This document shows, piece by piece, positions 23,126 to 54,664 of a stretch of 64,000 bases of DNA. A program made the translations under genes and the position numbers. The notes beneath the pieces are model-generated. The model saw nothing but the letters and a program-made list of their open reading frames with translations, made no database searches and was not told the DNA's origin. The stretch spans positions 1-64,000 of the forward strand of contig JAOADG010000012.1 of the NCBI GenBank assembly GCA_026417415.1, written 5' to 3'. Every line of letters begins with the position of its first letter. Within the stretch, counting starts at the first letter, position 1. The DNA comes from a bacterium. GTDB taxonomy: Bacteria > Electryoneota > JAOADG01.

Positions 23126-23407
23126 CATTAGCAACCTCCTTCGCATTTTTAATTACAACCTAAAATACATCATCTTTTCATAAAAGCAAGAATCTAAAAT
23201 CTTGAGCGGAAAAATTAAAGGTGATTTTGAACACTTTAAAGAGTGATCGTTCACATATTCTTAATAAACTCTTTCAAAGTTTTGTAAATACAAAAAATTT
23301 TGCGAAACTTTACCTAACCTTCCGTTTAATCCAAAGATTAAAATAACCAACTGTTTTAAAAATAACAACCAATTTTTAAAGTTTGAGTATTATTGAAACT
23401 CAGAGAG

Positions 23408-31406: not shown

Positions 31407-31901
31407 ATGAACGCAATTGATTTAGTCACTCCAAAGATAGGAATGTGGTTTTGGACCACACTCTTATTTCTTGCATTATTGTTCATTTTAAGAAAAACGG
31501 CTTGGAATGTGATTTTGAAAGCACTTGAGGAAAGAGAAAAAAATATCGCAAATGATATTGAACAAGCAAAACAAGCCAGAATTCAAGCCGAAAAGATTCG
31601 TGAGGAAATGATTGAACAACAAACCAAGCAGCTTGCACAAGCCAATGAACAGATTGCATTGATGTTAAAAAATGCCACAGATAGAGCCCAAGAGATTGAA
31701 GAGAAAGCAAAACAAACTGCTCAAAAAATTCAAGAACAATCTAAATATGAAATTGAATTAGAAAGACAAAAAGCAATTGCCAGCATAAGAAATGAAGTGG
31801 CTAACATTGCGATGCTCGCTGCGAAAACCATAATCGAACGTGAAATTAAACCTGAAGATCACAATAAAATCATTCAAGATACATTAAACCGAATGAATTA
31901 G
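31407..31901 (+). CDS. atpF: ATP synthase F0 subunit b
   Basis: 164 residues: one N-terminal membrane helix (FWTTLLFLALLFILRKTAW) followed by a long, charged coiled coil (EEREKNIANDIEQAKQARIQAEKIREEM) that forms the peripheral stalk linking F0 to F1. Length and layout are standard. AAAGGAAA precedes the ATG. atpH begins 10 bases after its stop. Confidence 0.94.
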   Translation: MNAIDLVTPKIGMWFWTTLLFLALLFILRKTAWNVILKALEEREKNIANDIEQAKQARIQAEKIREEMIEQQTKQLAQANEQIALMLKNATDRAQEIEEKAKQTAQKIQEQSKYEIELERQKAIASIRNEVANIAMLAAKTIIEREIKPEDHNKIIQDTLNRMN

Positions 31902-31910
31902 GATAAAATA

Positions 31911-32447
31911 GTGAAAGTTTTAGTTCAACGATACACATATGCATTGATTCTTGCAGCCAAAGAGGCAAAGGCGCTTGACGCAGTGACAAAAGACATTGCA
32001 CAGTTAGAACGTTTATTAACAGAAAATCTCGATGGCAATGAATTTCAAAATCGTATCAGTTCACCGATTTACACCAAAGCGGAAAGAAAAGAGTATATTC
32101 TTTCCCATTTTCAAAATGCACACGATTTGACCAAAAACTTTATTGCGATGGTGATGGATCGAGGAAGAGAAAAGATACTCATTGAAGTCCCTTCTGTCTT
32201 TCGTCAAATTCAACGTATGATAGAAGGGATTGTATGGGTTCAAATCACTTCCGCTAAACCCTTGAGTACACAAGAACTTCAAGCGTTTCAAATCAAGTTA
32301 ACGAAATCTCTAAACAAAAAAGTTGAGTGTAGTACCGAAGTTGACCCCACGTTAATTAGTGGGGTAGTCATTGAGGTAGAAGGAAAACGGTTTGACAGTT
32401 CGTTAAAACGTAAAATTGAAGAACTTCACACTTTGTTAATTCATTGA
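31911..32447 (+). CDS. atpH: ATP synthase F1 subunit delta
   Basis: 178 residues of the OSCP/delta family, which joins the b stalk to the top of F1. The N-terminal helical domain begins VQRYTYALILAAKEAKALDAV, and the C-terminal part has the family segment KKVECSTEVDPTLISGVVIEVEGKRFDSSLKRKIEEL. The start is GTG, with AGGA 7 bases upstream; no ATG lies nearby in frame. Confidence 0.94.
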   Translation: MKVLVQRYTYALILAAKEAKALDAVTKDIAQLERLLTENLDGNEFQNRISSPIYTKAERKEYILSHFQNAHDLTKNFIAMVMDRGREKILIEVPSVFRQIQRMIEGIVWVQITSAKPLSTQELQAFQIKLTKSLNKKVECSTEVDPTLISGVVIEVEGKRFDSSLKRKIEELHTLLIH

Positions 32448-32485
32448 ACCAATTTTGTAGAAGGAATAAGGAATAAGGAAGTAGT

Positions 32486-33994
32486 ATGCAACTTAGACCA
32501 GACGAAATTACATCTGTACTAAAAGAAAGAATCCAATCGTTTGACCGGAAAATACAAACAGACGAAATCGGCAAAGTTCTCACTGTAGGAGATGGAATTG
32601 CTCGGGTTTATGGATTAGACAATTGTCTTGCGGGTGAACTGATTGAGTTCCCGGGACAAGTGTACGGAATGGCTTTGAACTTAGAAGAAGACAATGTTGG
32701 AATTGCTCTTTTTGGAAGTGATGAGCACATCCGAGAAGGAGATATTGTCAAACGTACTGGAAGAGTTGTGGATGTGCCTGTCGGTGAAGAACTATGTGGA
32801 AGAGTGGTCAATCCATTAGGGATTCCGATTGATGGGAAAGGTCCTATTTTAGCAAAACGCAGGAATCCTGTAGAAAGAAAGGCAACAGGTGTAATTACTC
32901 GTCAACCGGTAAAAGAACCCTTGATGACTGGAATTAAAGCCATTGATGGAATGATCCCAATTGGTCGTGGACAAAGAGAATTGATTATTGGTGATCGGGG
33001 TACTGGAAAAACAGCAATTGCTGTGGATACCATCATTAACCAAAAAGGACAGAACGTTTATTGCATTTATGTCGCGATTGGTCAAAAAGGTTCTACGATT
33101 GCAAAAGTGGTTAAACAATTGCAAGACCACGGTGCAATGGATTATACCACTGTGATTTCATCCACTGCAGTAGAAACTGCACCTATTCAATTTCTTGCTC
33201 CTTATGCTGGTGCTGCAATGGGAGAGTATTTCAGAGACAACGGCAAGCATGCGTTGGTGATTTATGATGATCTAACCAAACATGCTTGGGCGTATAGACA
33301 ATTGTCTTTGCTTTTAAGGCGACCACCAGGACGAGAAGCATATCCCGGTGATGTGTTCTATTTGCATTCAAGGTTGTTGGAACGAGCTGCAAAATTATCC
33401 GATGCTTTAGGAGGAGGTTCATTAACCGCATTACCCATTATTGAAACTCAAGCAGGTGACGTTGCTGCTTACATACCAACCAATGTGATTTCAATAACGG
33501 ACGGCCAAATCTACCTTGAACCTGATCTTTTCTATTCAGGAATACGTCCTGCAATCAATGTTGGTATCTCTGTTTCACGTGTAGGTTCAAGTGCTCAGTT
33601 TAAGGCGATGAAGGCCGTTGCCGGTACCATGCGACTGGATTTAGCGCAATATCGAGAACTTGCTGCGTTTGCTCAATTCGGAAGTGATTTAGATGTTGCC
33701 ACCAGAAAACAGCTTATTCGCGGTGAAAGAGTAACAGAAATTTTAAAGCAGGGGCAGTTTACCCCTTGGCCCTTAGAAAAACAAGTAGCAACGATGTTTG
33801 CAGCCACCCAAGGTTATGCAGACGATATTCCCAGAGAAAAAGTAAAACAGTGGGAAAGTGAACTCATCGCATTTTTAGAGAACAGTCATGGAAATGTGTT
33901 GAAAGAGATTGCAGAGAAAAAAGAACTTTCAGAAGAAATCAAATTAAAATTAAAATCTGCCATTGAACATTTCAATCAATTGTTTGTTGCTTGA
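32486..33994 (+). CDS. atpA: ATP synthase F1 subunit alpha
   Basis: 502 residues, the usual length. The non-catalytic nucleotide site has the Walker [10 protein letters not shown], and the C-terminal region contains the alpha signature [22 protein letters not shown]. The N-terminal beta-barrel includes [10 protein letters not shown]. It forms the alpha3-beta3 hexamer with AtpD. AAGGAAG precedes the ATG. It lies between atpH and atpG in the standard order. Confidence 0.98.
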
Positions 33995-34026
33995 TTGTTG
34001 TGATTTGTAAGGAGTTTTAGAGAAAA

Positions 34027-34890
34027 ATGCCCTCATTAAAACAGATTAAGCGTCGTATTGCTAGTGTGAAATCTACGCAACAAATCACCAAAGCAATGAA
34101 GATGGTTGCTGCAGCGAAACTAAGAAAAGCACAAAACAATATGATGGCAGCAAGACCATATTCACATCGGTTACGAACCGTTATCGCAGACATGGCTGCC
34201 CGAACTGATTTTTCACATTTTCTACTGGCAGTTAGAGAACCTCAACAAGTTGCATTTGTTGTAGTCGCATCTGATCGCGGGATGGCGGGTAGTTTCAATA
34301 CCAATGTGATTAAAAAAGCAGTCGCGACCTACGAAGAATTTGAAGGTTCAGATCGATTTCTTATTACGGTAGGTAGAAAAGCGACGGACTATTTTGTAAA
34401 AAGAAATTATCCTGTACTATCTAAACACCTCAATGTTTTTCCTGATCCTACTTTAGAGTCAGCGAGGTCAATTGGCGAAAATATCATTGAGAAATATAGA
34501 AACAATGAGTTAGGTTTGGATCGTGTGTACTTAATTTACAATGAGTTTAAAAACGCAGCACAGCAGAGAATCGTGGTAGAGCAACTTTTGCCGATTACTC
34601 CTGAAAAAATGGAAAGCGAACCATATCTTCTGGATGTTCTTTTTGAACCCGATCCAGAAACGATTTTAAATACAATTTTACCTTTATACATCAATGTTAC
34701 GATTTGGCATGTTCTATTGGAATCTTTTGCTGCAGAAATGGCTGCACGAATGACTGCGATGGAAAACGCAACCAAAGCAGCAGGTGATTTAATTAAATCC
34801 TTGACGTTACAATTCAATAAAGCAAGGCAAAGTGCAATTACAAAAGAATTGCTTGAAATTGTGTCCGGTGCAGAAGCATTAAAAGGGTAA
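34027..34890 (+). CDS. atpG: ATP synthase F1 subunit gamma
   Basis: 287 residues, the central rotating shaft. The N-terminal helix contains RRIASVKSTQQITKAMKMVAAAKLRKAQ and the C-terminal helix contains MTAMENATKAAGDLIKSLTLQFNKARQSAITKEL, both strongly conserved. The middle domain has FVVVASDRGMAGSFNTNV. AAGGAG lies 13 bases upstream of the ATG. A 125-base gap separates it from atpD, wider than elsewhere in the operon. Confidence 0.97.
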   Translation: MPSLKQIKRRIASVKSTQQITKAMKMVAAAKLRKAQNNMMAARPYSHRLRTVIADMAARTDFSHFLLAVREPQQVAFVVVASDRGMAGSFNTNVIKKAVATYEEFEGSDRFLITVGRKATDYFVKRNYPVLSKHLNVFPDPTLESARSIGENIIEKYRNNELGLDRVYLIYNEFKNAAQQRIVVEQLLPITPEKMESEPYLLDVLFEPDPETILNTILPLYINVTIWHVLLESFAAEMAARMTAMENATKAAGDLIKSLTLQFNKARQSAITKELLEIVSGAEALKG

Positions 34891-34944
34891 ACAAAAAGCG
34901 GTTGAAGTTAGAGAGTAGTAGTAAATAACCGTTAAGAAGTTAAA

Positions 34945-34956
34945 GTTTCTAGAAAC
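34945..34956. other. 12-bp palindrome in the atpG-atpD gap
   Basis: The palindrome gtttctagaaac lies in the longest spacer of the atp operon. It could be a regulator site or have no function; nothing else in the spacer supports a promoter. Confidence 0.3.
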
Positions 34957-35006
34957 AATTTCGTTTAAGATTTACAAAATAAGATAATTACTAACGATTT
35001 ACATAG

Positions 35007-36518
<1,512 letters not shown>

Positions 36519-36532
36519 TTTTCAGGTGTTCA

Positions 36533-36931
36533 ATGGCAAACAATATCCTTTTTGAAATTCTTACTCCTCGTGGAGTTGTTTACAAAGCAAATGTTAAACA
36601 TGTTAAATTGCCGGGAATTGCTGGTCAATTTGGTGTACTACCTCAGCATATCCCATTTATGACGACTTTGGATATCGGTGTGATTGAACTAGACACCATT
36701 GAAGGAAAACAAGAAAAAATAGCTGTTTCTGGTGGATTTGTAGAGGTGCTTCCAGAAAAGATTGTTTTGTTTGCCGAAACGGCTGAAACTTCTGAAATGA
36801 TTGATTTGCAACGTGCACAAAACGCTTTACAACGTGCTGAAGAAAAATTAAAATCTGCAACTGACGAAATTGAAATAGAACGTCTGAAAATGGCGATTGC
36901 CAGAGCAAAAGCAAGAATTAAAGCAAAGTAA
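36533..36931 (+). CDS. atpC: ATP synthase F1 subunit epsilon
   Basis: 132 residues. The N-terminal beta-sandwich begins FEILTPRGVVYKANVKHVKLPGIAGQFGVLPQHIPFMT, and the C-terminal half is the helical hairpin (LQRAQNALQRAEEKLKSATDEIEIERLKMAIARAKARI) that can inhibit rotation. It begins 14 bases after atpD and closes the operon with a terminator overlapping its stop codon. Confidence 0.95.
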   Translation: MANNILFEILTPRGVVYKANVKHVKLPGIAGQFGVLPQHIPFMTTLDIGVIELDTIEGKQEKIAVSGGFVEVLPEKIVLFAETAETSEMIDLQRAQNALQRAEEKLKSATDEIEIERLKMAIARAKARIKAK

Positions 36932-36952
36932 TAGAAATCACTTTGTTTTTTT
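36924..36952 (+). terminator. probable terminator of the atp operon
   Basis: A 6-bp stem (caaagt/actttg, 10-nt loop) is followed by seven T. The left arm overlaps the atpC stop codon. The stem is short but the T-run is clear. Confidence 0.6.
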
Positions 36953-37053
36953 AACTTTGTATGTATATTAAGAATGGGGTTCTAACAACAGATTGAGAAT
37001 CATTACATACTAAAAAAGTTGAAGAAATAAGGACTCGGTAAAGAGGTAACTTT

Positions 37054-39156
37054 ATGATTGGAATAACATCCTTCAGGAGAAGAACGATAGAGGGAATTTT
37101 TTTCTCTGTTTTTCTCATTGCATCCTTTGCGTATGGAGTTACTGAAGAGAAGTTCAAATTGGCAAAAATCCGACACGTTCAAAAAGAGATGATTGGGTTT
37201 ACTGCAGAAAGACAAATTCGAGAAAGATTTCTTCAACAACTTGTCCAAGGTAATGCTCGTGAAATACGTCTTAGAAGACGTGCTGGTGAAGTGGTACCAA
37301 CCTTTTCTTATCCTGAAGGAGAAACCGAAAAATATTTTAATGTAGATGATACCTTAAACATCGTTGTTAATTTTTATGAATACCGTGATTCAGTTCGACT
37401 TGAATATGATAAAAAGTTAACTGCAGCAAGGAAAATTAAAAAAGATTTATTAGCAACTGCATCCCCGATAGCACTTGAGAGAATGAGAATATTTGATTGG
37501 AGTGCATTCTACTCTGCTTACGGAGCAAACATTGAGCTACGCAGCGATCCACAACTTGCATTACTTATTTCTGATGAATACGCTAGAAATTATCCTCAAG
37601 CTTTAGCCGACAGTTTTTGGTTCTATCGTGGAGAAGCAGCTTTAACTGCTGGGTATTATCGCGAGGCAATAGAAAGTTATGATCGAGTATTTGTATTGGA
37701 GACCTCTGCATTCCGACCTAAAACAATCGAACGATTAGCATTTTTATACGCTGAATTAGGCGATGCAAAACGTGCGGATAGAGTGTATCAGGTTTGGTTA
37801 AAAGCGGGAAAACCCCTTGCAGCAGATGGAAAAGTGGCTTTTCATATCGGACGTGCTCAATACGAAGCTGGAAATTATATCAAAGCAATAGAAGCGCTAC
37901 GATTAGTACCCAATAAAACACGATATGCATTTCGTGCAAAACTGTTATTAGGGTCAGCTTTAGCAAATACAGATCAATACGATAGTGCCATTGTCGTATT
38001 AAGGCCTTTTATTACTCAAAAAGTCATTGATAGAGTTGCGATTGAACCTGAACAGTATGTTTATGCTGCTTTGTTAGTTGCTCAAATACGTACGCTGATG
38101 GGAAAAGGAGATGAAGGTTTAAAAATACTATCTGTTTTGGATGTAAATGACGTCTATGGCGACAAAGTATTGTTTACAAAAGCATGGATTTACCGTACTA
38201 TCGGCCGTTTTGACGATATGGCACAAACGGCTGATTTACTTGTCCGCAAAAAAATATGGTCTCCTTATGTTCCTATTGCATCTGCTTGGTTATCAGAGGT
38301 TGCTGAATTAAAAGCGGATAAGTCCAGTGAAAAAAGCTATATCAACATCATAAAAATTTTAGAACAGAGTCAAAAAGCATCAAGATTTGCCGAAGAAAGA
38401 TTAGGCATTTATCGAATGATGAATGAACTCCATGAGTTAGAAGCACAAATCTTATTAAAAGAAGATATTGAATTGTTTAGACAGTATTTACGTGAACAAG
38501 GGCGATTAACGAATTTGTTAGAATATAACCTGCATCATGCTACTTTAATTTCCAACCCATTGATCACAGAAATTTCAATGCTAACGGATTCACTAGCAAA
38601 GTACAGACTAACGTTAAATCGTTTGCGACAAGTAGTAGATACAACAAAAAGCGGAAAATTAGAGAAACAATATATCCGATTAAGACGTGCGACTGAGATT
38701 CTCGAAGAGAGATTGCAAGAAATTCATCGTTTGACCAAAAATTTACAACCTGCTATCCGTTTAGAGCAGGATCAAAAAGTGCTGTTAAGAGAATTAGATG
38801 CATATTCAAAAAAAGCACTTCATTTGCTATCGGAAGGTGCTGATCCTTCTACATTACCTATTCCTGATAGAGCAACGATGGCTCATTTGAATCTTGATAA
38901 ATTCAGTTCACAACTCATTTCAATGAAAATGGATCAAATACGAACCAATATAGATGCATTTGCTGGATTTGCGTTACAAAGATATGCTTTGGGTGGATTG
39001 GATTTTGATGTATTGGTTCGACATCGAGAACAAAGCGATGAATTGACGTTGTACATCAATCAGATTAACGCTTTGATTGAAGCTAGAAATCAAGAATTTG
39101 ATGAAGTTGAAATGCGCAATATTCCTGAAAGTAAAAATCCGACTAATCCACAATAA
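37054..39156 (+). CDS. exported TPR/coiled-coil protein of the TolQR-AgmX operon
   Basis: 700 residues. A signal peptide (GIFFSVFLIASFAYG, cleavage near residue 28) is followed by a helical, repeat-rich region. TPR units are clearest at about 190-340 (YPQALADSFWFYRGEAALTAGYYREAIESYDRVF, then KVAFHIGRAQYEAGNYIKAIEALRLVP). The C-terminal ~250 residues are coiled coil. No lipobox is seen, so it is probably periplasmic. It is followed after 17 bases by the giant TPR gene and then by ExbB/ExbD/AgmX genes. TPR proteins of Myxococcus gliding loci have similar neighbours; direct homology cannot be shown by eye. Confidence 0.75.
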   Translation: MIGITSFRRRTIEGIFFSVFLIASFAYGVTEEKFKLAKIRHVQKEMIGFTAERQIRERFLQQLVQGNAREIRLRRRAGEVVPTFSYPEGETEKYFNVDDTLNIVVNFYEYRDSVRLEYDKKLTAARKIKKDLLATASPIALERMRIFDWSAFYSAYGANIELRSDPQLALLISDEYARNYPQALADSFWFYRGEAALTAGYYREAIESYDRVFVLETSAFRPKTIERLAFLYAELGDAKRADRVYQVWLKAGKPLAADGKVAFHIGRAQYEAGNYIKAIEALRLVPNKTRYAFRAKLLLGSALANTDQYDSAIVVLRPFITQKVIDRVAIEPEQYVYAALLVAQIRTLMGKGDEGLKILSVLDVNDVYGDKVLFTKAWIYRTIGRFDDMAQTADLLVRKKIWSPYVPIASAWLSEVAELKADKSSEKSYINIIKILEQSQKASRFAEERLGIYRMMNELHELEAQILLKEDIELFRQYLREQGRLTNLLEYNLHHATLISNPLITEISMLTDSLAKYRLTLNRLRQVVDTTKSGKLEKQYIRLRRATEILEERLQEIHRLTKNLQPAIRLEQDQKVLLRELDAYSKKALHLLSEGADPSTLPIPDRATMAHLNLDKFSSQLISMKMDQIRTNIDAFAGFALQRYALGGLDFDVLVRHREQSDELTLYINQINALIEARNQEFDEVEMRNIPESKNPTNPQ

Positions 39157-39173
39157 TAAGGGAGTGTTTGCCT

Positions 39174-42100
39174 ATGCGAAGATGTAACACTGGGTCATTA
39201 GTCATTTTCTATGTTGCACTACTAAGTTGGATTTTACCTCAACAAGTATTGGCGCAATCCACTGATAACCTTGATTCTTTAGCTATTCTTCGTTTAAAAA
39301 ACGAATTGCTTTCTATAGAAAAACAGTTAACAGAGATTACGCGTTTAAGTGGAACTGGTATTAGTGATCCGAATTCTCTTGCATCCCAACGATTTACTGA
39401 ATTACGCGAGCGCCAAGTGGCGATTGAGAGACGCATTAAAATGCTCTCTTACAAAGGTTTGGACAATGATTCTTTAAGAATTTTAGTAGAAAATTACCAA
39501 AGAGAAAAAGAACGCATTAACCGTGAAAGTCAGTCATTAAGAAAAGTATTTATTGCACGCTGCGAAACATTTTTGAATCAATGGAGACAAACAGATCCCA
39601 GACAAAGATTGCAAATACCGGATGATTTAATTGCACAAATTGTTTTAAGATTGGCCGAATTGTATGCTTTTGAAGCGTTTGATGATTATGGTGAGGCGAT
39701 GGAAAAATGGAATAAAAATCCAACTTTACCTGAACCAAAAGTGAATTACAACAAAGCAGCCAAAACCTTTGCAGAAGTGGTAAGAGATTTCCCCAACTCA
39801 CGGTGGGCTCCCGATGCGATGTATAGTTTAGCGTATATCAAAACCGAACAAGCTAATCCTGATCCGTTTATCTATGATCCATTAAGAGATGAAGCAAGGA
39901 GTTTATATACTCAGCTTATTGAATACTACCCAACTAGTCGTTATGTGGATGAAGCGTATTTTGCGTTGGGAGATTATTGGTTCCATACTCCCCCAAAAAA
40001 CACGAAACCTGCTCAGCAACTTGACTCCGCTGAATATTATTACAAACTGATTGTACAAAGAGGAAATAAAAATAAACTGGGTACCGCTTACTATATGCTG
40101 GGTTGGACTCAGTTTAGAAGAAACACAGGTATATCCTATGCAAGGGCGGTAGAATATTTTGAGAAAACAATTTATTTCTACACTGAGAACCCAGAAATCG
40201 TTGCGATAAGTAAACGGGATGATCGTGAAGAAGCCATTAAGTACATTGCAGGGATTTTTGTCGATCAAGGTAAAGTTTGGAACGGTTCAGGCGCTGCAAA
40301 TGCTGTTCAATTTGTGGAAGCCGATTCATTTCGAGCAAACACTTATGGAACAAAGATGCTTGAAATACTTGGACAACAGCTTACCATCGCGCAGAATGCC
40401 TATGATTCAGCAATTTATGTCTGGAAAGGAGCAATACGGATTGCACCTTTAAATGAACGTGCTCCATTTATCCAAAAAAATATTTTAGATATGGCACGAT
40501 ACGAACTGAATAACATGAATCTGTGGTATGTTGAAGGGATCAAGTTATTTGAAAACTACAACTCTAAATCACCATGGTGGGCTGCGAACACTTCACCTAA
40601 GATACGAAAGCAAATCCGATCGATGATCCGTACTGTTTATGATGAAGTAACGCGCTATGCTGTTGCGAGATCAATTGATAATACTCGACCTGATTATAAC
40701 CCAAGTATGATTGATGAAGCAATTAAACTTGCTTCAGGAATGGTGAATGAATTTCCCAATGATTCTGCTGCTTATGAATGGAATTTTCAAGTTGCTAATA
40801 TGTTGGCAAGTCCGCAAGTCAATCGAATTGAAGAAGCATATGAGGAGTATAAAAAGGTTTCTGAAAACTATCCATTTACATGGCACAAGCAGGAATCCAA
40901 TTTACAGATGCTTTTGCTAGCAAATGAAAAGGCAACCACGCAATTAAAAGCATTTCCTTACAAAGAAGCAGAAACAGATACTGCGACAGGTTTACCACTT
41001 GCTGTGAATGATACACTCACTGATGGCGAAAAACTACTCATACTCGCAGCTGATAAATATGCAAATTCATATCCACAAGATGATACCATCTCTTCTACCT
41101 ACTTGTACAAAGCCGGTCTCGTACTTTACCGACGTGGCTACATTGATTCTTCTGCTACTTTTTTTAATCGTGTAATAAAAAATTATCCTACCTCAAAAGC
41201 TTATGAATCAGCATTTCAATTGTATGTTAATACCTTTTTAGTGAAGAGAGATTTTAAAGGTGCAGAAGTTGCTACACAGGAACTTATTGCGGCACCAGTA
41301 TCTGATTCTCTAAAGGTGTTCGCAAAAGAGAGACGTGCGGCAGCAGCTTTTTTCAATGCAGCCGGGCTTCAAGCCAGTGCTGAAAAAATTCTGGAAGATA
41401 CAACAACGGCCTCGAAATCAGATGCTTATCGTATTTATGAAGAGGCAGGAGATAACTATGTGAAGGTTGCGGTAGAAACCGATCCTCAGTTCTTTAAAGA
41501 TGGTGACTTAGCATTAGAGAACGCTGCACTCTCTTATCGAAAAGCACAAAAACCAGAAAAAGTGATTTATGCATACAATTTATTAGTGGAAAAGTTTCCT
41601 ACCTCTAATCGTGTTCCGAGAGCTTTATACAATTCCGGTTTGATTCTTCAGAATGAATTAAAAAACAATTTAGCTGCTGCACAAAAATTTGAATTGTTAG
41701 TCAAGAATTATCCCAAAGGCGAATACGATGTTAAACAAGCATTAATCAACGCTTCCTACAATTATGAAGAAGCAAAAGATTATTCAAGTGCAGTTCGTAT
41801 CAATCAAGAATTTGCAAAGTTATTTCCTAATGAACCTGAAGCTGTCCAACTTCTCTTCAAAACTGCCGGATTGTATCTAAAATTAGGCAATGTGGATGGT
41901 GCAAATAAAATATATGAAGAATTTGCTCGGCAATATCCCAATAGTCCAAACACTGTTGTGGCACATTATGAAAGAGCAAAGTACGCAGATGAGAGAAATG
42001 ACCGCGTAGTGGCACGTAGAGAATATCAACTTGCCTATGAACGGCACAATCAGCTGGTCGCTGCAGGTGGTACTGGAAATCCAGAGTACGCTTCAAAGGC

Positions 42101-44561
42101 ATTGTATCGGATTACTCAATGGGATTTAGATACTTATAGAAACATTCAATTTACAGCGTCCAAGCAATATAGAGAAGGTGTACAACAACGCGATCAGAAA
42201 AAAGCATTAAGAGAAATCCTGTTTAATAACATTCGTAATCTTGTTCAGTTGAGTCAAATTGAACAATTTGAAGCGTTGTATTGGGCAGGTGAATTGGATG
42301 AAAATTTCGGTACCACACATCTCAATCAAAAAGTTGAACCAGCAAAAGATGCAATTACCAATTATGACAATAGAGAGTTGATCATTGAAGAAACAATTGA
42401 GTTTTATAAACTCGCTGTTAAGGAATATGCGAATTCTCTTGTACAATACGATAAGGCAATAGAATTGCTTGAACAACAATACAACGAGCAAGTTGCATTA
42501 AGAGATACACTTTTTGCACAAATAGAAAAAATGACTCAGTCCAATGCATCTGGGATTGCAGACTCAAATACCGTTTTAGAGGTTAGAAACAATCTAGTCA
42601 ATAAACTCAATACTGCACTTGTTGAAGCAAAGAGATGGCGAGAGCGTGCCAGAGAAAAAGCTCCGGAACTTGCGTTTCGTAACGCAATGCTCAAAAAAGA
42701 GATATTATTAAGTGCTTCAGCTTTACCCGATGTTCCCAATCCTAAAATAAAAGATGTGGATGTTGGTAGAACTTTGTACCGTCAACAAGTACTAAGTGGT
42801 GTAATTGGTGAATTCACGAAAAAACTTTTTGAATCCTTTATGGAAGCCATTAAAGTTGCACGAGAAGCTGGATACGAAGAAAAATGGGCACAACCTGCAC
42901 GTGTTGAAATGGCTTCAGCAGTTGATTTTGTGTTGAAAGATGCATCACAATTGAATCAACGCTGGTTTGATATTTTTCAAAGATATCACCAAGATATCCA
43001 GAATTTATTACCAAGAGGTGAAGGTGCAAGAGATAGGCAACGAAGAGAAGTTTTAACCATAGCATCTGAACTTGAACAAATCGTTGCATTGTATGCAGGT
43101 GATAAAGGTGTAACAGCTGTTGTAAATAAAATTATCAATGAACTAATCGAAATCATTCAATCCGATGAAAAAGAATTCGTAGCAATGCAACCTATGGTTG
43201 AGAAAGTTTTGAAATGGTATTTGGACGAAGCAGAAAAAACAGTTCCTTATATTGAAATTTCACGGAATGCTGATATAAGTGCGAAAAATAAATTTGCGGA
43301 AACCAGTCAATATCAATATGAAGATGCATATCTAAAATATGAGTCCATCCGTTTGTACTTTGAAAGCCAATATAAAGATTTATTAAGTTCGGGTTATGAT
43401 CTTAGTGAGCGGTATAAGTTTGATTCTCCAACAGTTCCGATGTTGATACAAAAGTTAGCAGAGATTGATCCTGAAACTTATGGTGCTAAAGTAGGGATCA
43501 CTGTAAAAGAGAACGTAGTTTATAGTGATGAAAATTGGATTGCGATTGATAAATATATTGAAGGATTTACTGAATCGAATTTAGATTTAACAGGTTGGAG
43601 ATACGCTGAAATTAGTCCTATGGTATTCAACGATAGTGCAAAAGCAGTATTGGGAGCTGCAAAACCTATACACTACGTAACCAAACCCAATGGAACCAAA
43701 ACATGGTTCAGAAAAGCAGTTTGGATACCAGAAAGGGTTACCTCTGCATCCTTGTCATTTGTTGCAGATCAAATTGTTTCGGTATTTGCAAACAAAGAGT
43801 TTTTATACTCAACTCCAGAAGAAGTTACAGATTGGACGATGCCAGTAACTATAGATGTTTCACCGATTATCAAAGCGGGATATAATGTTCTAACCTTTGA
43901 AGTCGAAGATACGGATGGATCAAATAATGGAATTGCAGTGATGTTTAAATATCGAACAGTACCAGGTGTTGTAACTCCAGTTTATCCGGAACCACCCAAT
44001 GCTTCAACGATTAACAATGTTAAGCGGGGATTGGATATACCACCTCCTGTAGAAACGAAAGCAGAGCCCACGATCGAAAAACAGGAACAAGTTACACCTG
44101 AAGCTCCTACTACTGGAACAGAAGCACCGGTTGCTATTCCAGAAACCATTCCCCAGCAACCTGTAGAAACGCCTATACAGCAAGCTACACCGGTTCAGGA
44201 AGAACAGAAAGAAGTAGTTCCGGAAACAGAGATACCGGTTTCTACACCGGAATCAGTTCCACAACAACCTGTAGAAACGCCTACACAGCAAGCTGCACCG
44301 GTTCAGGAGGAAGTGACACCTAAAACTGAACAATTGGAAACAACACCAGTAATTCCTGAAGTAGAGCAACAAAAAGAAGTTTTACCAGAATCGGTCACAA
44401 CACCAGTAGATACAACTAATACAACAACTACTGTTCAAGACACAATTCAAACCTTGCCAGTTGAAGAAACAGTCCCAAGAGGAATGGAGGAATTAGAGGA
44501 AATTCCTGTGGATACATCATCTGCTCCTGTGGACACTTTAGAACCTAATCAAGGTCAATAA
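39174..44561 (+). CDS. giant exported TPR protein with C-terminal beta-sandwich and PETQ-rich tail
   Basis: About 1795 residues. I use the ATG at 39174 (9 bases after AAGGGAG); an in-frame TTG at 39168 is too close to it. A signal peptide ends near VLAQ. From about residue 180 to 1020 there are many TPR-like units, for example AAKTFAEVVRDFPNSRWAPDAMYSLAYI and ASYNYEEAKDYSSAVRINQEFAKLFPNEPEAV, typical of YbgF/BamD-like periplasmic repeats. A coiled-coil region follows, then a beta-rich module at about 1450-1595 resembling galactose-binding folds (WFRKAVWIPERVTSASLSFV). The last ~180 residues are Pro/Glu/Thr/Gln-rich with an internal repeat. A scaffold role in the envelope is inferred. Confidence 0.8.
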   Translation: MRRCNTGSLVIFYVALLSWILPQQVLAQSTDNLDSLAILRLKNELLSIEKQLTEITRLSGTGISDPNSLASQRFTELRERQVAIERRIKMLSYKGLDNDSLRILVENYQREKERINRESQSLRKVFIARCETFLNQWRQTDPRQRLQIPDDLIAQIVLRLAELYAFEAFDDYGEAMEKWNKNPTLPEPKVNYNKAAKTFAEVVRDFPNSRWAPDAMYSLAYIKTEQANPDPFIYDPLRDEARSLYTQLIEYYPTSRYVDEAYFALGDYWFHTPPKNTKPAQQLDSAEYYYKLIVQRGNKNKLGTAYYMLGWTQFRRNTGISYARAVEYFEKTIYFYTENPEIVAISKRDDREEAIKYIAGIFVDQGKVWNGSGAANAVQFVEADSFRANTYGTKMLEILGQQLTIAQNAYDSAIYVWKGAIRIAPLNERAPFIQKNILDMARYELNNMNLWYVEGIKLFENYNSKSPWWAANTSPKIRKQIRSMIRTVYDEVTRYAVARSIDNTRPDYNPSMIDEAIKLASGMVNEFPNDSAAYEWNFQVANMLASPQVNRIEEAYEEYKKVSENYPFTWHKQESNLQMLLLANEKATTQLKAFPYKEAETDTATGLPLAVNDTLTDGEKLLILAADKYANSYPQDDTISSTYLYKAGLVLYRRGYIDSSATFFNRVIKNYPTSKAYESAFQLYVNTFLVKRDFKGAEVATQELIAAPVSDSLKVFAKERRAAAAFFNAAGLQASAEKILEDTTTASKSDAYRIYEEAGDNYVKVAVETDPQFFKDGDLALENAALSYRKAQKPEKVIYAYNLLVEKFPTSNRVPRALYNSGLILQNELKNNLAAAQKFELLVKNYPKGEYDVKQALINASYNYEEAKDYSSAVRINQEFAKLFPNEPEAVQLLFKTAGLYLKLGNVDGANKIYEEFARQYPNSPNTVVAHYERAKYADERNDRVVARREYQLAYERHNQLVAAGGTGNPEYASKALYRITQWDLDTYRNIQFTASKQYREGVQQRDQKKALREILFNNIRNLVQLSQIEQFEALYWAGELDENFGTTHLNQKVEPAKDAITNYDNRELIIEETIEFYKLAVKEYANSLVQYDKAIELLEQQYNEQVALRDTLFAQIEKMTQSNASGIADSNTVLEVRNNLVNKLNTALVEAKRWRERAREKAPELAFRNAMLKKEILLSASALPDVPNPKIKDVDVGRTLYRQQVLSGVIGEFTKKLFESFMEAIKVAREAGYEEKWAQPARVEMASAVDFVLKDASQLNQRWFDIFQRYHQDIQNLLPRGEGARDRQRREVLTIASELEQIVALYAGDKGVTAVVNKIINELIEIIQSDEKEFVAMQPMVEKVLKWYLDEAEKTVPYIEISRNADISAKNKFAETSQYQYEDAYLKYESIRLYFESQYKDLLSSGYDLSERYKFDSPTVPMLIQKLAEIDPETYGAKVGITVKENVVYSDENWIAIDKYIEGFTESNLDLTGWRYAEISPMVFNDSAKAVLGAAKPIHYVTKPNGTKTWFRKAVWIPERVTSASLSFVADQIVSVFANKEFLYSTPEEVTDWTMPVTIDVSPIIKAGYNVLTFEVEDTDGSNNGIAVMFKYRTVPGVVTPVYPEPPNASTINNVKRGLDIPPPVETKAEPTIEKQEQVTPEAPTTGTEAPVAIPETIPQQPVETPIQQATPVQEEQKEVVPETEIPVSTPESVPQQPVETPTQQAAPVQEEVTPKTEQLETTPVIPEVEQQKEVLPESVTTPVDTTNTTTTVQDTIQTLPVEETVPRGMEELEEIPVDTSSAPVDTLEPNQGQ
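44154..44311 (+). repeat. 108-bp-period repeat inside the giant TPR gene
   Basis: About 50 bases starting cagcaacctgtagaaacgcct recur 108 bases later as caacaacctgtagaaacgcct with few changes, encoding a 36-residue-spaced repeat (QQPVETP-QQA-PVQEE). It lies in the Pro/Glu/Thr/Gln-rich tail and marks recent internal duplication. Confidence 0.8.
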
Positions 44562-44584
44562 GTGGAATAGGAAAGGAGAAAATT

Positions 44585-44902
44585 ATGAGAGTTATCATTG
44601 TCATTTTATCCTTATTCAGTTTAGGTATCGGTTCTTTGGCGTATTCACAACAAACGATGACTTTTGAAGAAAAAATTCGAGCGGAAGTGGATTTTCCAAA
44701 GTGGATGCTCTTTGGTGGAAGACAAAGATCGGAGTTCCCAAAGGCGACTTTGGATTTAAATGCAAGCGATATTTTAACAAAAGTACCGTATGTATTATAT
44801 AGAGCGGATCCAGTTGAAAGAAAACCCTTACTGGGTTTTCAACTAAATGATAAGGATTTTTATACACCAACCATTAAAATTGAGTTTGAATTAAAAAGGT
44901 AA
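44585..44902 (+). CDS. small secreted protein of unknown function
   Basis: 105 residues with a signal peptide (VIIVILSLFSLGIGSLAYSQQ). The mature ~83 residues contain FPKWMLFGGRQRSEFPKATLDLNASDILTKVPYVLYRADPV and look beta-rich. AAAGGAG precedes the ATG. It sits between the giant TPR gene and the ExbB gene in the same orientation, so it is probably a periplasmic part of the same machine. I do not recognise the family. Confidence 0.65.
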   Translation: MRVIIVILSLFSLGIGSLAYSQQTMTFEEKIRAEVDFPKWMLFGGRQRSEFPKATLDLNASDILTKVPYVLYRADPVERKPLLGFQLNDKDFYTPTIKIEFELKR

Positions 44903-44973
44903 TTGCAAGAATTTGTTATTTCAATTATATTCGCAACTTGGTTAAACAATAGGACTTTAACGGAGGAATCAAA

Positions 44974-45618
44974 ATGGAACAATTTTTATCAAAGTTCTTC
45001 TCAGCTTACAACTTAGCAAATGATGGAAGTTTGTTTATGTGGGCAATTGCTTTAATGGGTGCTTGGGGTCTAGTAATCATCGTTGAACGCTTTAACACCA
45101 TTTGGATGAAAGCCAATGTAAACGCAAAAGCGTTTATGACAGAAATTTATCAGTATTTGCGTTCAAATAACGTAGATGCTGCAATCAAACTCTGTAGTGA
45201 GGGTGAACAAAAAGCATTGGTCAAAGTTGTCGGTGCAATTCTAAAAGCGTATAAGCAACACGGTGATTATCGTGCCATGCAAAATGCAGCTGACGAAGCG
45301 GTTTTGGAAATTGTACCACATTTGAATAAGCGTACTCCAATGCTACAAATGATCTCGGGTGTATCTACGTTGTTAGGGCTAATCGGGACCATTTATGGTT
45401 TGATTATTGCATTCTCTGCTGCTGCTGCTGCCGGTGCGGGTGGTTCTCAAGCATTAACGGTAGGTATTTCTGTAGCAATGTTAACGACCTTTGCCGGTCT
45501 TATGAATGCTATTCCGATTTCATTGTTGCATGCTGTTATCCAAAGCAAGACCAATCATATCATTGAAACCATTGACGAAAATTCTGTAAAATTGATGAAC
45601 TTCTTAATTGCCAAATAA
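44974..45618 (+). CDS. MotA/TolQ/ExbB proton channel protein
   Basis: 214 residues with three membrane helices: one near residues 18-37 (LFMWAIALMGAWGLVIIVERF), then a cytoplasmic loop of ~85 residues, then helices around 125-145 (VSTLLGLIGTIYGLIIAF) and 160-185 (GISVAMLTTFAGLMNAIPISLL). These match the TolQ/ExbB core with its LLGLxGT motif and conserved Thr. It should form a pentamer around ExbD subunits and convert proton flow to motion. GGAGG lies before the ATG. Two ExbD genes follow directly. Confidence 0.93.
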   Translation: MEQFLSKFFSAYNLANDGSLFMWAIALMGAWGLVIIVERFNTIWMKANVNAKAFMTEIYQYLRSNNVDAAIKLCSEGEQKALVKVVGAILKAYKQHGDYRAMQNAADEAVLEIVPHLNKRTPMLQMISGVSTLLGLIGTIYGLIIAFSAAAAAGAGGSQALTVGISVAMLTTFAGLMNAIPISLLHAVIQSKTNHIIETIDENSVKLMNFLIAK

Positions 45619-45651
45619 TTGGATTAAAACAGAAGAAAGGAACTTTATTTT

Positions 45652-46272
45652 ATGGCGTTCCAACCATCCAAAAAGGCAAAACTGTTATTTAGAGATTACT
45701 CGGAACCTGATTTAGTCCCGTTAATGAACATCATGTTGATTTTGATTCCTTTGTTGGTCTCAATTGTATCGTTCATTCAGTTTGCTTTCTTACAGTATAA
45801 TCCTAATCCTGCAGCGGGTGGAGAAGGCGCTGGTGGAGGTGGCGGTGGAAGTGGTGAAGCGGGAGAAATGTTAAACTTGGTGCTTAATATTACTGAAAAT
45901 TCTTTTCAAATTTCAGTTCTCAATGCACTGCCAGGAAGTCCTAACTATTTTGAAATACCAAAGTTAGAGAATGGGCGATACAACTATACCGGTCTTAAAG
46001 ATCGGTTAATGTACATTAGAAAAGAAATCGTTAAAGATCCTATTGAGACGAAAGAAACCATTGATCCGTTAACACGACAGATTTCTTATACAATGCGGTT
46101 TCGTTACGCTGATGGAAATATCATCAACATATCAGCAAAGAATGAGATTCCTTGGCAAGTATGTACACGAGTACTTGATGTCATTCGTGAGTACGAAGTG
46201 AAGACACTTCCGAACGGTGCAAAATTATCTATCCCTTTGTTTGCTGAACCTGTATTTGGTCAAATTCAATAA
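45652..46272 (+). CDS. ExbD/TolR-family protein with Asn in place of the membrane Asp
   Basis: 206 residues: short cytoplasmic N-terminus, one membrane helix (LVPLMNIMLILIPLLVSIVSF, residues 21-41), a Gly-rich linker (about 56-68) and a periplasmic domain. In ExbD/TolR the helix begins with a proton-carrying Asp (TPFIDVMLVL in E. coli ExbD). The aligned residue here is Asn26, so this subunit cannot be protonated in the usual way. AAAGGA precedes the ATG. It is followed after 18 bases by a second ExbD gene that keeps the Asp. Confidence 0.88.
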   Translation: MAFQPSKKAKLLFRDYSEPDLVPLMNIMLILIPLLVSIVSFIQFAFLQYNPNPAAGGEGAGGGGGGSGEAGEMLNLVLNITENSFQISVLNALPGSPNYFEIPKLENGRYNYTGLKDRLMYIRKEIVKDPIETKETIDPLTRQISYTMRFRYADGNIINISAKNEIPWQVCTRVLDVIREYEVKTLPNGAKLSIPLFAEPVFGQIQ

Positions 46273-46290
46273 GAGAGGAGTGGTAGCATT

Positions 46291-46788
46291 ATGGCAATGA
46301 GCCCCACTAAAAGGGTAAAAAATAAAACCAAAGAGTTTAAAATGCCGCCATTAACCTCGTTAATGGATGCCATAACCATCTTGACATTCTTTTTATTGAC
46401 TCAAATGTCAACCAGCACGATTTTACATCCACTTATTGAATCGGTTCCTAAATCTACCGTTGAAAACGAAGTAGTCAAAGGGTTAGTTCTTGGATTAGAC
46501 CGTAGTGGATTGTTTCAGGATCTTGGACAAACAGTAAAAGAAGAACAGCGAAAAATTTTGTTGGCATCACCTAGCGAGATGGAATCACCTGAACTGGATA
46601 TACCAGCATTAACCGCAGTATTAAGTGATGAAATCCAACGTACTCAAGCAAGAGGTCTTCCACCACATACCATTACATTAATGGTGGATTCATTGATAAA
46701 ATACAGTTGGGTACTCAAAGTCATTAATACAGCAGGCAATTTGAATTATCCAAAAATTGACTTTGTGGTATTAAAAGGAAGAGGATAA
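46291..46788 (+). CDS. ExbD/TolR-family protein with conserved membrane Asp
   Basis: 165 residues: basic N-terminus, one membrane helix (LTSLMDAITILTFFLLTQM, residues 21-39) and a periplasmic domain ending in ITLMVDSLIKYSWVLKVINTAG, the ExbD-type fold. Asp26 aligns with Asp25 of E. coli ExbD and should carry the proton. GAGGAG precedes the ATG. It is likely the active partner of the Asn-bearing ExbD encoded just upstream, both within the ExbB pentamer. Confidence 0.9.
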   Translation: MAMSPTKRVKNKTKEFKMPPLTSLMDAITILTFFLLTQMSTSTILHPLIESVPKSTVENEVVKGLVLGLDRSGLFQDLGQTVKEEQRKILLASPSEMESPELDIPALTAVLSDEIQRTQARGLPPHTITLMVDSLIKYSWVLKVINTAGNLNYPKIDFVVLKGRG

Positions 46789-46798
46789 GGGGGAAACT

Positions 46799-47845
46799 AT
46801 GGCTACAGCGGTTTCTACGTTCCCAAAACATTTGGAAAGGAATTGGTTCCGTGAAAAAATGGAGGAAGACCGCGATTTTCTGATCATCTTCTTCTTAGGA
46901 TACCTATTGGTAATCACTTTTTTTGCGGTGATGGGTTCTTTAGAATGGAAAGAAATGACGCTTGAAGATGCACAAAGACATTTAGATAAATTGTACTCGG
47001 TAAAGACATCTACGCCTGCCTATGCACGACGGCAAATTATGCAACAAGGTAAGAAAGAAGAAGAAGTGAAAACTGCTGATGAAGGACGACAAGCAGAGGC
47101 ACGTGGAAGAACTGAAGAAAAGAAAGTTCTATCTGCGGAAGAACGTCGTGCTCGCCGTGAAGCTGCTGCTGGTGCTATGTCTGCACAGATTGGTTCTGCC
47201 ATTGATGCCGCTTCATCTGTAGGAATCTTTAGACGTGCAGGTGCTGCTGGTGGTGGACGTGGAGGTAGAGGTGCAGGTGCAGTTGCTGGGCTTAGCACCG
47301 GTATTGGTAGCGGTGCGGACATGAAAGGTCTTGCGGGTATTGGTGTATCTGGTCAGGATTTAGCCAATGCCCAGCGATTGAGAGGTTCAGGTTCACTAAT
47401 TGAAGGTGGTGGTGGTACTGGTGGTAGGTTAAATTTAAGAGATATGACACCTGCGGAAATTGATGCATTGATTAAGCGTGCAAGTGTTAAAGCCGTAGGA
47501 GCACCCACAGTTGTAGGTTCAGAAAAAGCCAAAGTTGCTAAAGGTAGAACCACTGAGGATTTATCAAGACAAATTGCAAGTTATTCTAATCAAGTTAAAG
47601 CATGTTATCAGCAGTTTTTAAGACAAGATCCCAATTTAGCTGGAACTGTTCGTTTATCTTTTACCATAAAACCAAATGGCACTACTTCAGCAGTGCGAGT
47701 CACGGAAAGTGATTGGAGTGATGCAAGTTTAGGAAATCGAGTAAACGCATGTATTGTTCAACGAGCACAAAGTTGGAGATTTGATCAAATAGAAGCTACG
47801 AGTGGTGACTTGACTGTAAATTACACGTATGTATTTTCTCGGTAA
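46799..47845 (+). CDS. TonB-like protein with AgmX/PglI C-terminal domain
   Basis: 348 residues. One membrane helix (about 27-46, FLIIFFLGYLLVITFFAVMG) is followed by a charged coiled coil (about 80-130), a Gly-rich linker (about 145-215) and a C-terminal domain (about 255-348). That domain contains SNQVKACYQQFLRQDPNLAGTVRLSFTIKPNGTTSAVRV and CIVQRAQSWRF, the pattern of the AgmX/PglI C-terminal family, with two conserved Cys. Such proteins transmit force from ExbB/ExbD to envelope partners, like TonB; AgmX is a Myxococcus gliding protein. GGGGG precedes the ATG, and a terminator follows the gene. Confidence 0.88.
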   Translation: MATAVSTFPKHLERNWFREKMEEDRDFLIIFFLGYLLVITFFAVMGSLEWKEMTLEDAQRHLDKLYSVKTSTPAYARRQIMQQGKKEEEVKTADEGRQAEARGRTEEKKVLSAEERRARREAAAGAMSAQIGSAIDAASSVGIFRRAGAAGGGRGGRGAGAVAGLSTGIGSGADMKGLAGIGVSGQDLANAQRLRGSGSLIEGGGGTGGRLNLRDMTPAEIDALIKRASVKAVGAPTVVGSEKAKVAKGRTTEDLSRQIASYSNQVKACYQQFLRQDPNLAGTVRLSFTIKPNGTTSAVRVTESDWSDASLGNRVNACIVQRAQSWRFDQIEATSGDLTVNYTYVFSR

Positions 47846-47905: not shown

Positions 47906-47945
47906 AAGGAACCGTAGTCATCTTCGGTTCCTTTCTAATTTTATT
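47906..47945 (+). terminator. terminator of the TPR-ExbBD-AgmX operon
   Basis: A 9-bp stem (aaggaaccg/cggttcctt, 10-nt loop) is followed by a T-rich stretch (tctaattttatttta). It separates this operon from aspS. Confidence 0.75.
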
Positions 47946-53377: not shown

Positions 53378-54664
53378 ATGGAACCATTTCTGATAATCTT
53401 ACTTTTTGTAGCCCTCTATTTTTTCCTTTTTATCATTGTTACTGTAGAGATTGCATTTTTTGCTTTAACGAAAAAGGACATGGATGTACTGAACAAAGAA
53501 AATGATTTTGAGAGAAAAATTATTATTTATCGTCGAAAACCCAGAGAAATCATTTTAACTTCAATCACAACGACTACAATTTTTTTATTAGCATTAGGTG
53601 TTTTAATCGCTTACTGTACGAAATTGATCGCACATAATCAACTTAAAACCTTTACCACAATTAACTTGTTGATTTGGTTTTTCGTTCAAGTATTGGTGGT
53701 CATTTTAATAGGTGGAATACTACCTAGAATTTATGCAGTGGCTAATCCCATACAGACGTTAAGACGTTTTTTACCTGCGTTCTTTTTATTTTATAAAATC
53801 TTTTATCCCGTGGTCTCGCTCTTACGATTGATCACCACGAGGTTGGCAATTCTATTAGGTGTACACAAAGAGAGTTTGTACGTATCGGAAAGTTTTGTTT
53901 CAGCCATTGTAGAAGTAGAACAAGAAAATGATCACGTAACCGAAGAAGAAAGGAAAATGATTCGAGGGGTAATGGAGTTTGGTGATAAAACAGCAAAAGA
54001 AATCATGGTACCCCGTCCTGATGTAGTGTTTCTAAGTGTAGATATCAATATCCCAGATGCAATACGTTTGGTAAAAGAATCTCATCGGAGTAGAATTCCT
54101 GTTTATGAAGAGAACATTGATCATATCGTAGGTATTTTGTATGCAAAAGATTTATTGGGTGAGTTACCTGAAAATGCAACCATTCGTTCGTTATGTCGTG
54201 CTGCACATTCAGTTCCTGAATATAAAAAGGTAGATGAGTTGTTGAGGGAAATGCTGCGATTGCATATCCACATGGCAATCGTGATAGATGAATATGGTGG
54301 AACGTCAGGAGTTGTGACCTTGGAAGATATCGTAGAAGAGATCATCGGGGAAATACAAGATGAGTACGACCGTGATACGAAAAAAATCGAAATTGAATCT
54401 GAAAATTCATGGATTGTGGAAGCGAGTTTTCTAACTTCAGAATTAAACCGAGAATTAGATACCACAGTGGTTCCAGAAAGTGATGAATATGACACAATTG
54501 GAGGTTATATTTTATCAATTGCAGGTCGTGTACCTGATATCGGTGAAGAATTCGCAGTTGGGAATTGGAAATTTATCGTTGTCAACAAATCACAAACTAG
54601 AATAAAAAAAATTCGGATTATTAAAGAAGAAGTAGTACAGGATACTGAAGATGAATCTGAGTGA
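53378..54664 (+). CDS. CorC/TlyC-type CNNM transporter with CBS pair
   Basis: 428 residues: a DUF21 membrane domain with several helices (about 1-165), a CBS pair (about 200-325, including MVPRPDVVFLSVDINIPDAIRLVKESHRSRIPVYE and HMAIVIDEYGGTSGVVTLEDIVEEIIGEIQDEYD), and a CorC/HlyC domain at the end (about 340-415). Members are Mg2+ or other divalent cation transporters or their regulators. GldE of Bacteroidetes, linked to gliding, has the same layout. The end overlaps the next gene by 14 bases. Confidence 0.9.
   Translation: MEPFLIILLFVALYFFLFIIVTVEIAFFALTKKDMDVLNKENDFERKIIIYRRKPREIILTSITTTTIFLLALGVLIAYCTKLIAHNQLKTFTTINLLIWFFVQVLVVILIGGILPRIYAVANPIQTLRRFLPAFFLFYKIFYPVVSLLRLITTRLAILLGVHKESLYVSESFVSAIVEVEQENDHVTEEERKMIRGVMEFGDKTAKEIMVPRPDVVFLSVDINIPDAIRLVKESHRSRIPVYEENIDHIVGILYAKDLLGELPENATIRSLCRAAHSVPEYKKVDELLREMLRLHIHMAIVIDEYGGTSGVVTLEDIVEEIIGEIQDEYDRDTKKIEIESENSWIVEASFLTSELNRELDTTVVPESDEYDTIGGYILSIAGRVPDIGEEFAVGNWKFIVVNKSQTRIKKIRIIKEEVVQDTEDESE

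Follow-up and report, generated by a model that had tools for sequence, protein, structure and literature searches.

The Agl/Glt core complex, encoded by aglRQS together with gltC, gltD, gltE and gltG, was described from Gammaproteobacteria, Deltaproteobacteria and one member of the Fibrobacteres (Luciano et al., 2011; PMC3169522). The gliding (Agl-Glt) and sporulation (Agl-Nfs) machines of Myxococcus have a motor and transducer homologous to those reported here, with the genes dispersed in M. xanthus and with many further parts. To our knowledge, a function has been demonstrated for none of the stand-alone core complexes since their description in 2011. A counterpart in Fibrobacter succinogenes (FSU_2396-2403), equated by gene order, annotation and Luciano et al. 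(2011), shares with the operon described here the order TPR, TPR, ExbB, ExbD, ExbD, TonB and the export of both TPR proteins, but has an OmpA gene in front. By family, TolQR-Pal, ExbBD-TonB and GldLM are proton motors of the same 5:2 type.

Here we analysed a 64,000-nucleotide stretch of DNA, hereafter the window, from a 2.2-Mb bacterial genome (40 contigs; GCA_026417415.1), and found an operon that, judged from its sequence, is a stand-alone Agl/Glt core complex in an FCB variant. With the described core complex (PMC3169522) it shares an AglR-type ExbB, two ExbDs, GltG- and GltD-like proteins, a putatively GltC-like protein and an extra small gene, all in one operon, whilst the FCB form differs in having neither a GltE gene nor the FHA region of GltG, in a longer TPR2 protein with a C-terminal jelly roll, and in lying beside ATP synthase genes in many genomes. 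The original prediction had put the assembly together from the genes of the window; as one unit this holds, but the machine is the ‘core complex’ already known (PMC3169522).

Layout and components of the operon

Seven ORFs, all on the plus strand, occupy positions 37054-47845 of the window with gaps of, in order, 11, 23, 71, 33, 18 and 10 nt (range 10-71 nt), and are followed by a terminator with a 9-bp hairpin (-16.1 kcal/mol, z -4.7, 0/200 shuffles folding as well), which the motif scan did not pick up because its loop exceeds 8 nt. Coordinates and hairpin thus confirm the predicted run of seven genes in one direction with short gaps and a terminator. The family scan returned, in gene order, TPR, TPR, no family, MotA_ExbB, ExbD, ExbD and an AgmX/PglI C-terminal domain, in agreement with the product list first proposed (including a TPR protein of about 1795 aa, ExbB, two ExbDs and AgmX/PglI). 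The features are as follows.

37054..39156, plus strand: TPR1, predicted exported, putatively GltC-like, 700 aa (TPR families; profile link to GltC)
39168..44561, plus strand: TPR2, predicted exported, GltD-like, 1797 aa (TPR_6/YbgF/BamD-type repeats; profile match to GltD-position proteins)
43503..43973, plus strand: predicted C-terminal jelly roll of TPR2, about residues 1446-1602 (AlphaFold2, Foldseek, Pfam in relatives)
44585..44902, plus strand: small, predicted secreted protein of the core-complex family, 105 aa (iterative family profile)
44974..45618, plus strand: ExbB/AglR-like predicted proton-channel subunit (PF01618, 3e-21; tree position; T139, T172)
45652..46272, plus strand: ExbD1, first ExbD-type axle subunit, with Asn at the site of the proton-carrying Asp (family scan, alignments)
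45727..45729, plus strand: Asn26 codon of ExbD1 (alignment to ExbD2 and other ExbDs)
46291..46788, plus strand: ExbD2, second ExbD-type axle subunit, with the conserved Asp (PF02472, 5.8e-6)
46366..46368, plus strand: Asp26 codon of ExbD2 (Asp in 86/86 distinct sequences)
46799..47845, plus strand: AgmX/PglI-domain putative transducer, GltG-like without the FHA region (NF033760, 1.5e-22; NF033768, 4e-21)
about 47906..47933, plus strand: terminator hairpin, then U-rich sequence (fold z -4.7)

Segments resembling signal peptides were recognised by eye at the N-termini of TPR1, TPR2 and the 105-aa protein, TPR2 measuring 1797 aa from a TTG codon and 1795 aa from the next ATG. Both TPR proteins were identified through bridging Myxococcota operons, themselves reached indirectly through one deltaproteobacterial locus, which match the GltC, GltE and GltG models and whose TPR proteins were matched by the profiles of FCB TPR1 and TPR2. 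The FCB TPR1 profile matched TPR1 of one bridging locus, L162, at 1e-23, and this protein matched GltC at 1e-15; the window TPR1 had no direct hit to the GltC model (NF033756), its link being indirect, via L162, L179, L305 and L307. The FCB TPR2 profile matched proteins in the GltD position of Myxococcota operons at about 4e-59 to 2e-99, and in family scans no match was seen between TPR2 and the curated GltD model. TPR1 is thus tentatively assigned as GltC-like and TPR2 as GltD-like, which would make the likeness to the Myxococcus machine one of homology. As first drawn, that likeness concerned the AglRQS motor and AgmX; the AglR-type clade of the motor, the GltD-like TPR2 and the putatively GltC-like TPR1 bear it out, but the first ExbD, with no proton-carrying Asp, departs from it.

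With motor, GltG, GltD and probably GltC homologous to Myxococcus gliding parts, the operon might be thought to drive gliding motility like Agl-Glt, a reading which we hold to be decidedly improbable. The FCB operons lack GltE, no gene for this TPR lipoprotein being found between TPR2 and ExbB in the FCB clusters, Luciano et al. (2011; PMC3169522) argued that motility is unlikely to result from the core by itself, and Caldithrix abyssi, a member of a phylum that commonly carries the cluster, is flagellated and lacks gliding genes of the Bacteroidetes type (PMC5317091).

For the 105-aa protein no family was returned by the first family scan, whilst an iterative family profile matched it at E values of about 1e-9 to 1e-11 and gathered about 100 clusters, including FCB, Chitinivibrionales and Myxococcota; its structural model was mostly unstructured and the fold uninformative. 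We take it, from this distribution, to be a conserved component of the core complex. The AgmX protein matched NF033768 at 4e-21 and had GltG (NF033760) as its best full-length model (1.5e-22), below the GltG equivalog cut-off of 650 bits; like GltG, it combines this C-terminal domain with a TM helix. Its match began at profile position 343, compared with 143-224 in Myxococcota, and by this match start, with the FHA judged by eye, the FHA region that GltG of the Myxococcota operons has at its N-terminus is absent from the window protein. A PDB sequence search with the same protein gave a chance match only and was discarded.

Motor phylogeny and the two ExbD proteins

The window ExbB (MotA_ExbB, PF01618, 3e-21) carries the invariant residues T139 and T172. 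In the ExbB tree FCB and Chitinivibrionales grouped with the Myxococcota core operons, to which the clade of the window was sister (support 99/94), with the dispersed Asp/Asp-type myxococcal motors just outside, a branching that assigns the window motor to the AglR-type clade. A role in general upkeep of the envelope or in TonB-type import would suit the housekeeping-like setting of the conserved locus, and TonB import is how the authors of the Fibrobacter study interpreted the counterpart there (PMC6851124). We nevertheless consider such a role fairly unlikely: the window ExbB branches away from Tol-Pal and TonB motors, including those of its own genome, where both systems are present as separate, complete copies (the Tol-Pal operon at locus L097, with the TolA-TolB-Pal that the window operon lacks); giant TPR proteins are foreign to either system; and the AgmX protein has no canonical TonB C-terminus, TonB_C scoring 18.2 bits against a Pfam cut-off of 24.6. 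The TonB-type operon of the genome (L098:6908-13194), its second motor, has an ExbB and two ExbDs of its own, runs PstS-like protein, TPR, ExbB, ExbD, ExbD, TonB and adjoins nuoLMN.

The two ExbDs of the window differ in their match to the ExbD family, ExbD2 reaching 5.8e-6 (PF02472) and ExbD1 0.0023, below cut-off. They also differ at the proton-carrying position, which among distinct FCB sequences is Asn in 80/83 ExbD1 proteins (Asp in 2, Ser in 1) and Asp in 86/86 ExbD2 proteins. The same division was found in the best 30 Myxococcota loci, where the first ExbD has Asn in 27 and Gly or Ser in 3 and the second has Asp throughout, whereas in the dispersed myxococcal motors both ExbDs carry Asp; AglQ and AglS of M. 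xanthus, both described with the Asp (PMC9389320), differ in this from the window, where only ExbD2 has it. A literature search for an Asn-bearing ExbD in AglQ/AglS returned no relevant paper, and we present the Asn/Asp split, as it appears in these alignments, as new. Models of 5:2 rotary motors usually assume two equivalent Asp. In the window motor, five ExbB would surround an ExbD1-ExbD2 heterodimer of which Asp26 of ExbD2 would be the sole proton carrier. In Chitinivibrionales there is also a natural fusion of ExbB to an Asn-type ExbD1 (L173:10769-12073, L181:10781-12094), adjoining a second ExbB, an ExbD2 and an AgmX-like gene, with no TPR genes beside it.

Conservation of the locus and type IX secretion

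Gene order was tallied over 80 loci, mostly from Calditrichota and KSB1, obtained from a scan of named genomes. All seven genes were uninterrupted and in the same order in 49/80, many of the others being cut by contig ends, and the order ExbB-ExbD1-ExbD2-AgmX was kept in 70/80. The repetition of the seven-gene order over several phyla puts the grouping far beyond chance, and the seven genes are, on this evidence of synteny, best regarded as one conserved unit. The proposal that they form one machine is thereby supported as regards the unit, and the TPR genes do not travel separately but stay with the motor genes. Within the phylum of the window, TPR1 and AgmX adjoin in families f2, f5 and f6 and lie on separate contigs in the f4 assemblies; both were missing from families f3 and f8, as represented by MAG assemblies that may miss genes. 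In relatives, as in the window, a frequent setting is between atpDC and aspS-phoH (AgmX-aspS adjacency in 51/80 loci, atpC-TPR1 in 25/80), and such neighbours suggest a housekeeping role. The window, like many FCB genomes, thus has a proton-consuming motor operon directly behind ATP synthase genes (31407-47845). A few genes downstream of the operon, 53378-54664 encodes a CorC/GldE-like membrane protein (TIGR03520, 258 bits, below cut-off).

The possibility that, where FCB lineages have no GldL/GldM, a motor of this type energises type IX secretion (T9SS) or surface movement linked to it was weighed against the distribution of both systems. The window genome has 62 T9SS sorting tails, SprA is present in 32/35 genomes with a window-type motor and in almost every genome of the phylum, and in profile searches, which divergent GldLM may escape, GldM never exceeded the cut-off in 41 + 23 genomes and GldL never did so either, the window genome included. 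In families f3 and f8 and in some of the f4 genomes, however, SprA and many tails occur without the operon, three Myxococcota/proteobacterial genomes have the core but no SprA, and the core operon was nowhere seen adjacent to sprA. We therefore judge this role unlikely, and a T9SS motor was dropped as the main reading on account of f3 and f8. That the one-Asp Agl/Glt core moves or powers the T9SS surface machinery in FCB phyla outside typical Bacteroidota, where T9SS occurs without detectable GldLM, likewise seems distinctly unlikely; if true, two different motor types would serve one secretion system. The observations prompt one to ask how type IX secretion is energised in such lineages. When a substitute motor was sought in f3 and f8, the other ExbBs proved to be of the Tol-Pal and TonB types, save for a trio beside sprA in f8: there, an ExbB-ExbD pair is divergent to the adjoining sprA (L248:7608-9300, L251:3937-5500), a candidate T9SS energiser, accompanied at L248 by a proline-rich TonB-like ORF. 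Within the window, three proteins carry T9SS sorting tails (20357-23146, 25232-27472 and 57032-59383), the second having an M6 metalloprotease domain.

A possible surface-glycan cargo

The C-terminal domain of TPR2 was modelled by AlphaFold2 as a confident jelly roll (pLDDT 85.6) which Foldseek matched to GH2 enzymes (E 1e-6, prob 1.00), and Pfam assigns the corresponding domain of relatives to GH2_N / Bac_rhamnosid_N. We regard it as a putative sugar-binding-like domain of the GH2 / rhamnosidase N-terminal type, although the sugar-binding fold of GH2 type is able to bind proteins too. Almost every FCB TPR2 has the domain, which in some cases is encoded by an ORF of its own, as in family f2, where the gene is split (L074:7596-8363, L075:10072-10803, L171:8719-9486); in the Myxococcota counterparts it was not detected.

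This extra domain makes a surface glycan or glycan-bound cargo probable rather than dedicated gliding, and we favour, with moderate confidence, the reading that the core variant passes force to a surface glycan or to glycan-bound adhesion or enzyme complexes. The AgmX/GltG-like protein would relay rotation or conformational work of the motor to the TPR proteins in the periplasm, and these in turn to outer-membrane or surface cargo, so that the machine would probably span the envelope. The cargo, most likely a surface glycan or glycan-bound adhesion or enzyme complexes and possibly including T9SS-exported proteins, would be recognised or anchored with the help of the TPR2 jelly roll. With neither GltE nor the FHA region, the FCB form may couple to its cargo differently from the described complex. 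Of the functions originally left side by side, moving cells, transporting cargo or maintaining the envelope, gliding is not indicated (PMC3169522, PMC5317091) and a glycan or adhesion cargo is favoured, indirectly.

Related systems are consistent with a glycan cargo. The Agl-Nfs machine of M. xanthus moves with and carries spore-coat polysaccharide (PMC3858216). Growth on cellulose raises the FSU_2396-2403 genes of F. succinogenes, with some of the ExbD and TonB-like products seen in cellulose-grown cells only, and a vesicle complex that contains FSU_2396/2397 also includes cellulases and a fibro-slime protein that binds cellulose (PMC6851124, PMC4619616, PMC8092306). An outer-membrane barrel gene followed the core operon in 19/19 Myxococcota cases with downstream sequence, a Wza-type exporter gene in 10 of these and a Wzc-like gene in 2, counts that include the search seeds (four barrel and two exporter proteins); at the same search sensitivity, no barrel or exporter genes were found beside the FCB operons.

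As a conserved, housekeeping-like operon in several FCB phyla, the core complex would offer new places in which to test its basal function, and an axle with one Asp and one Asn, kept over phyla, would put models of 5:2 rotary motors to a natural test.
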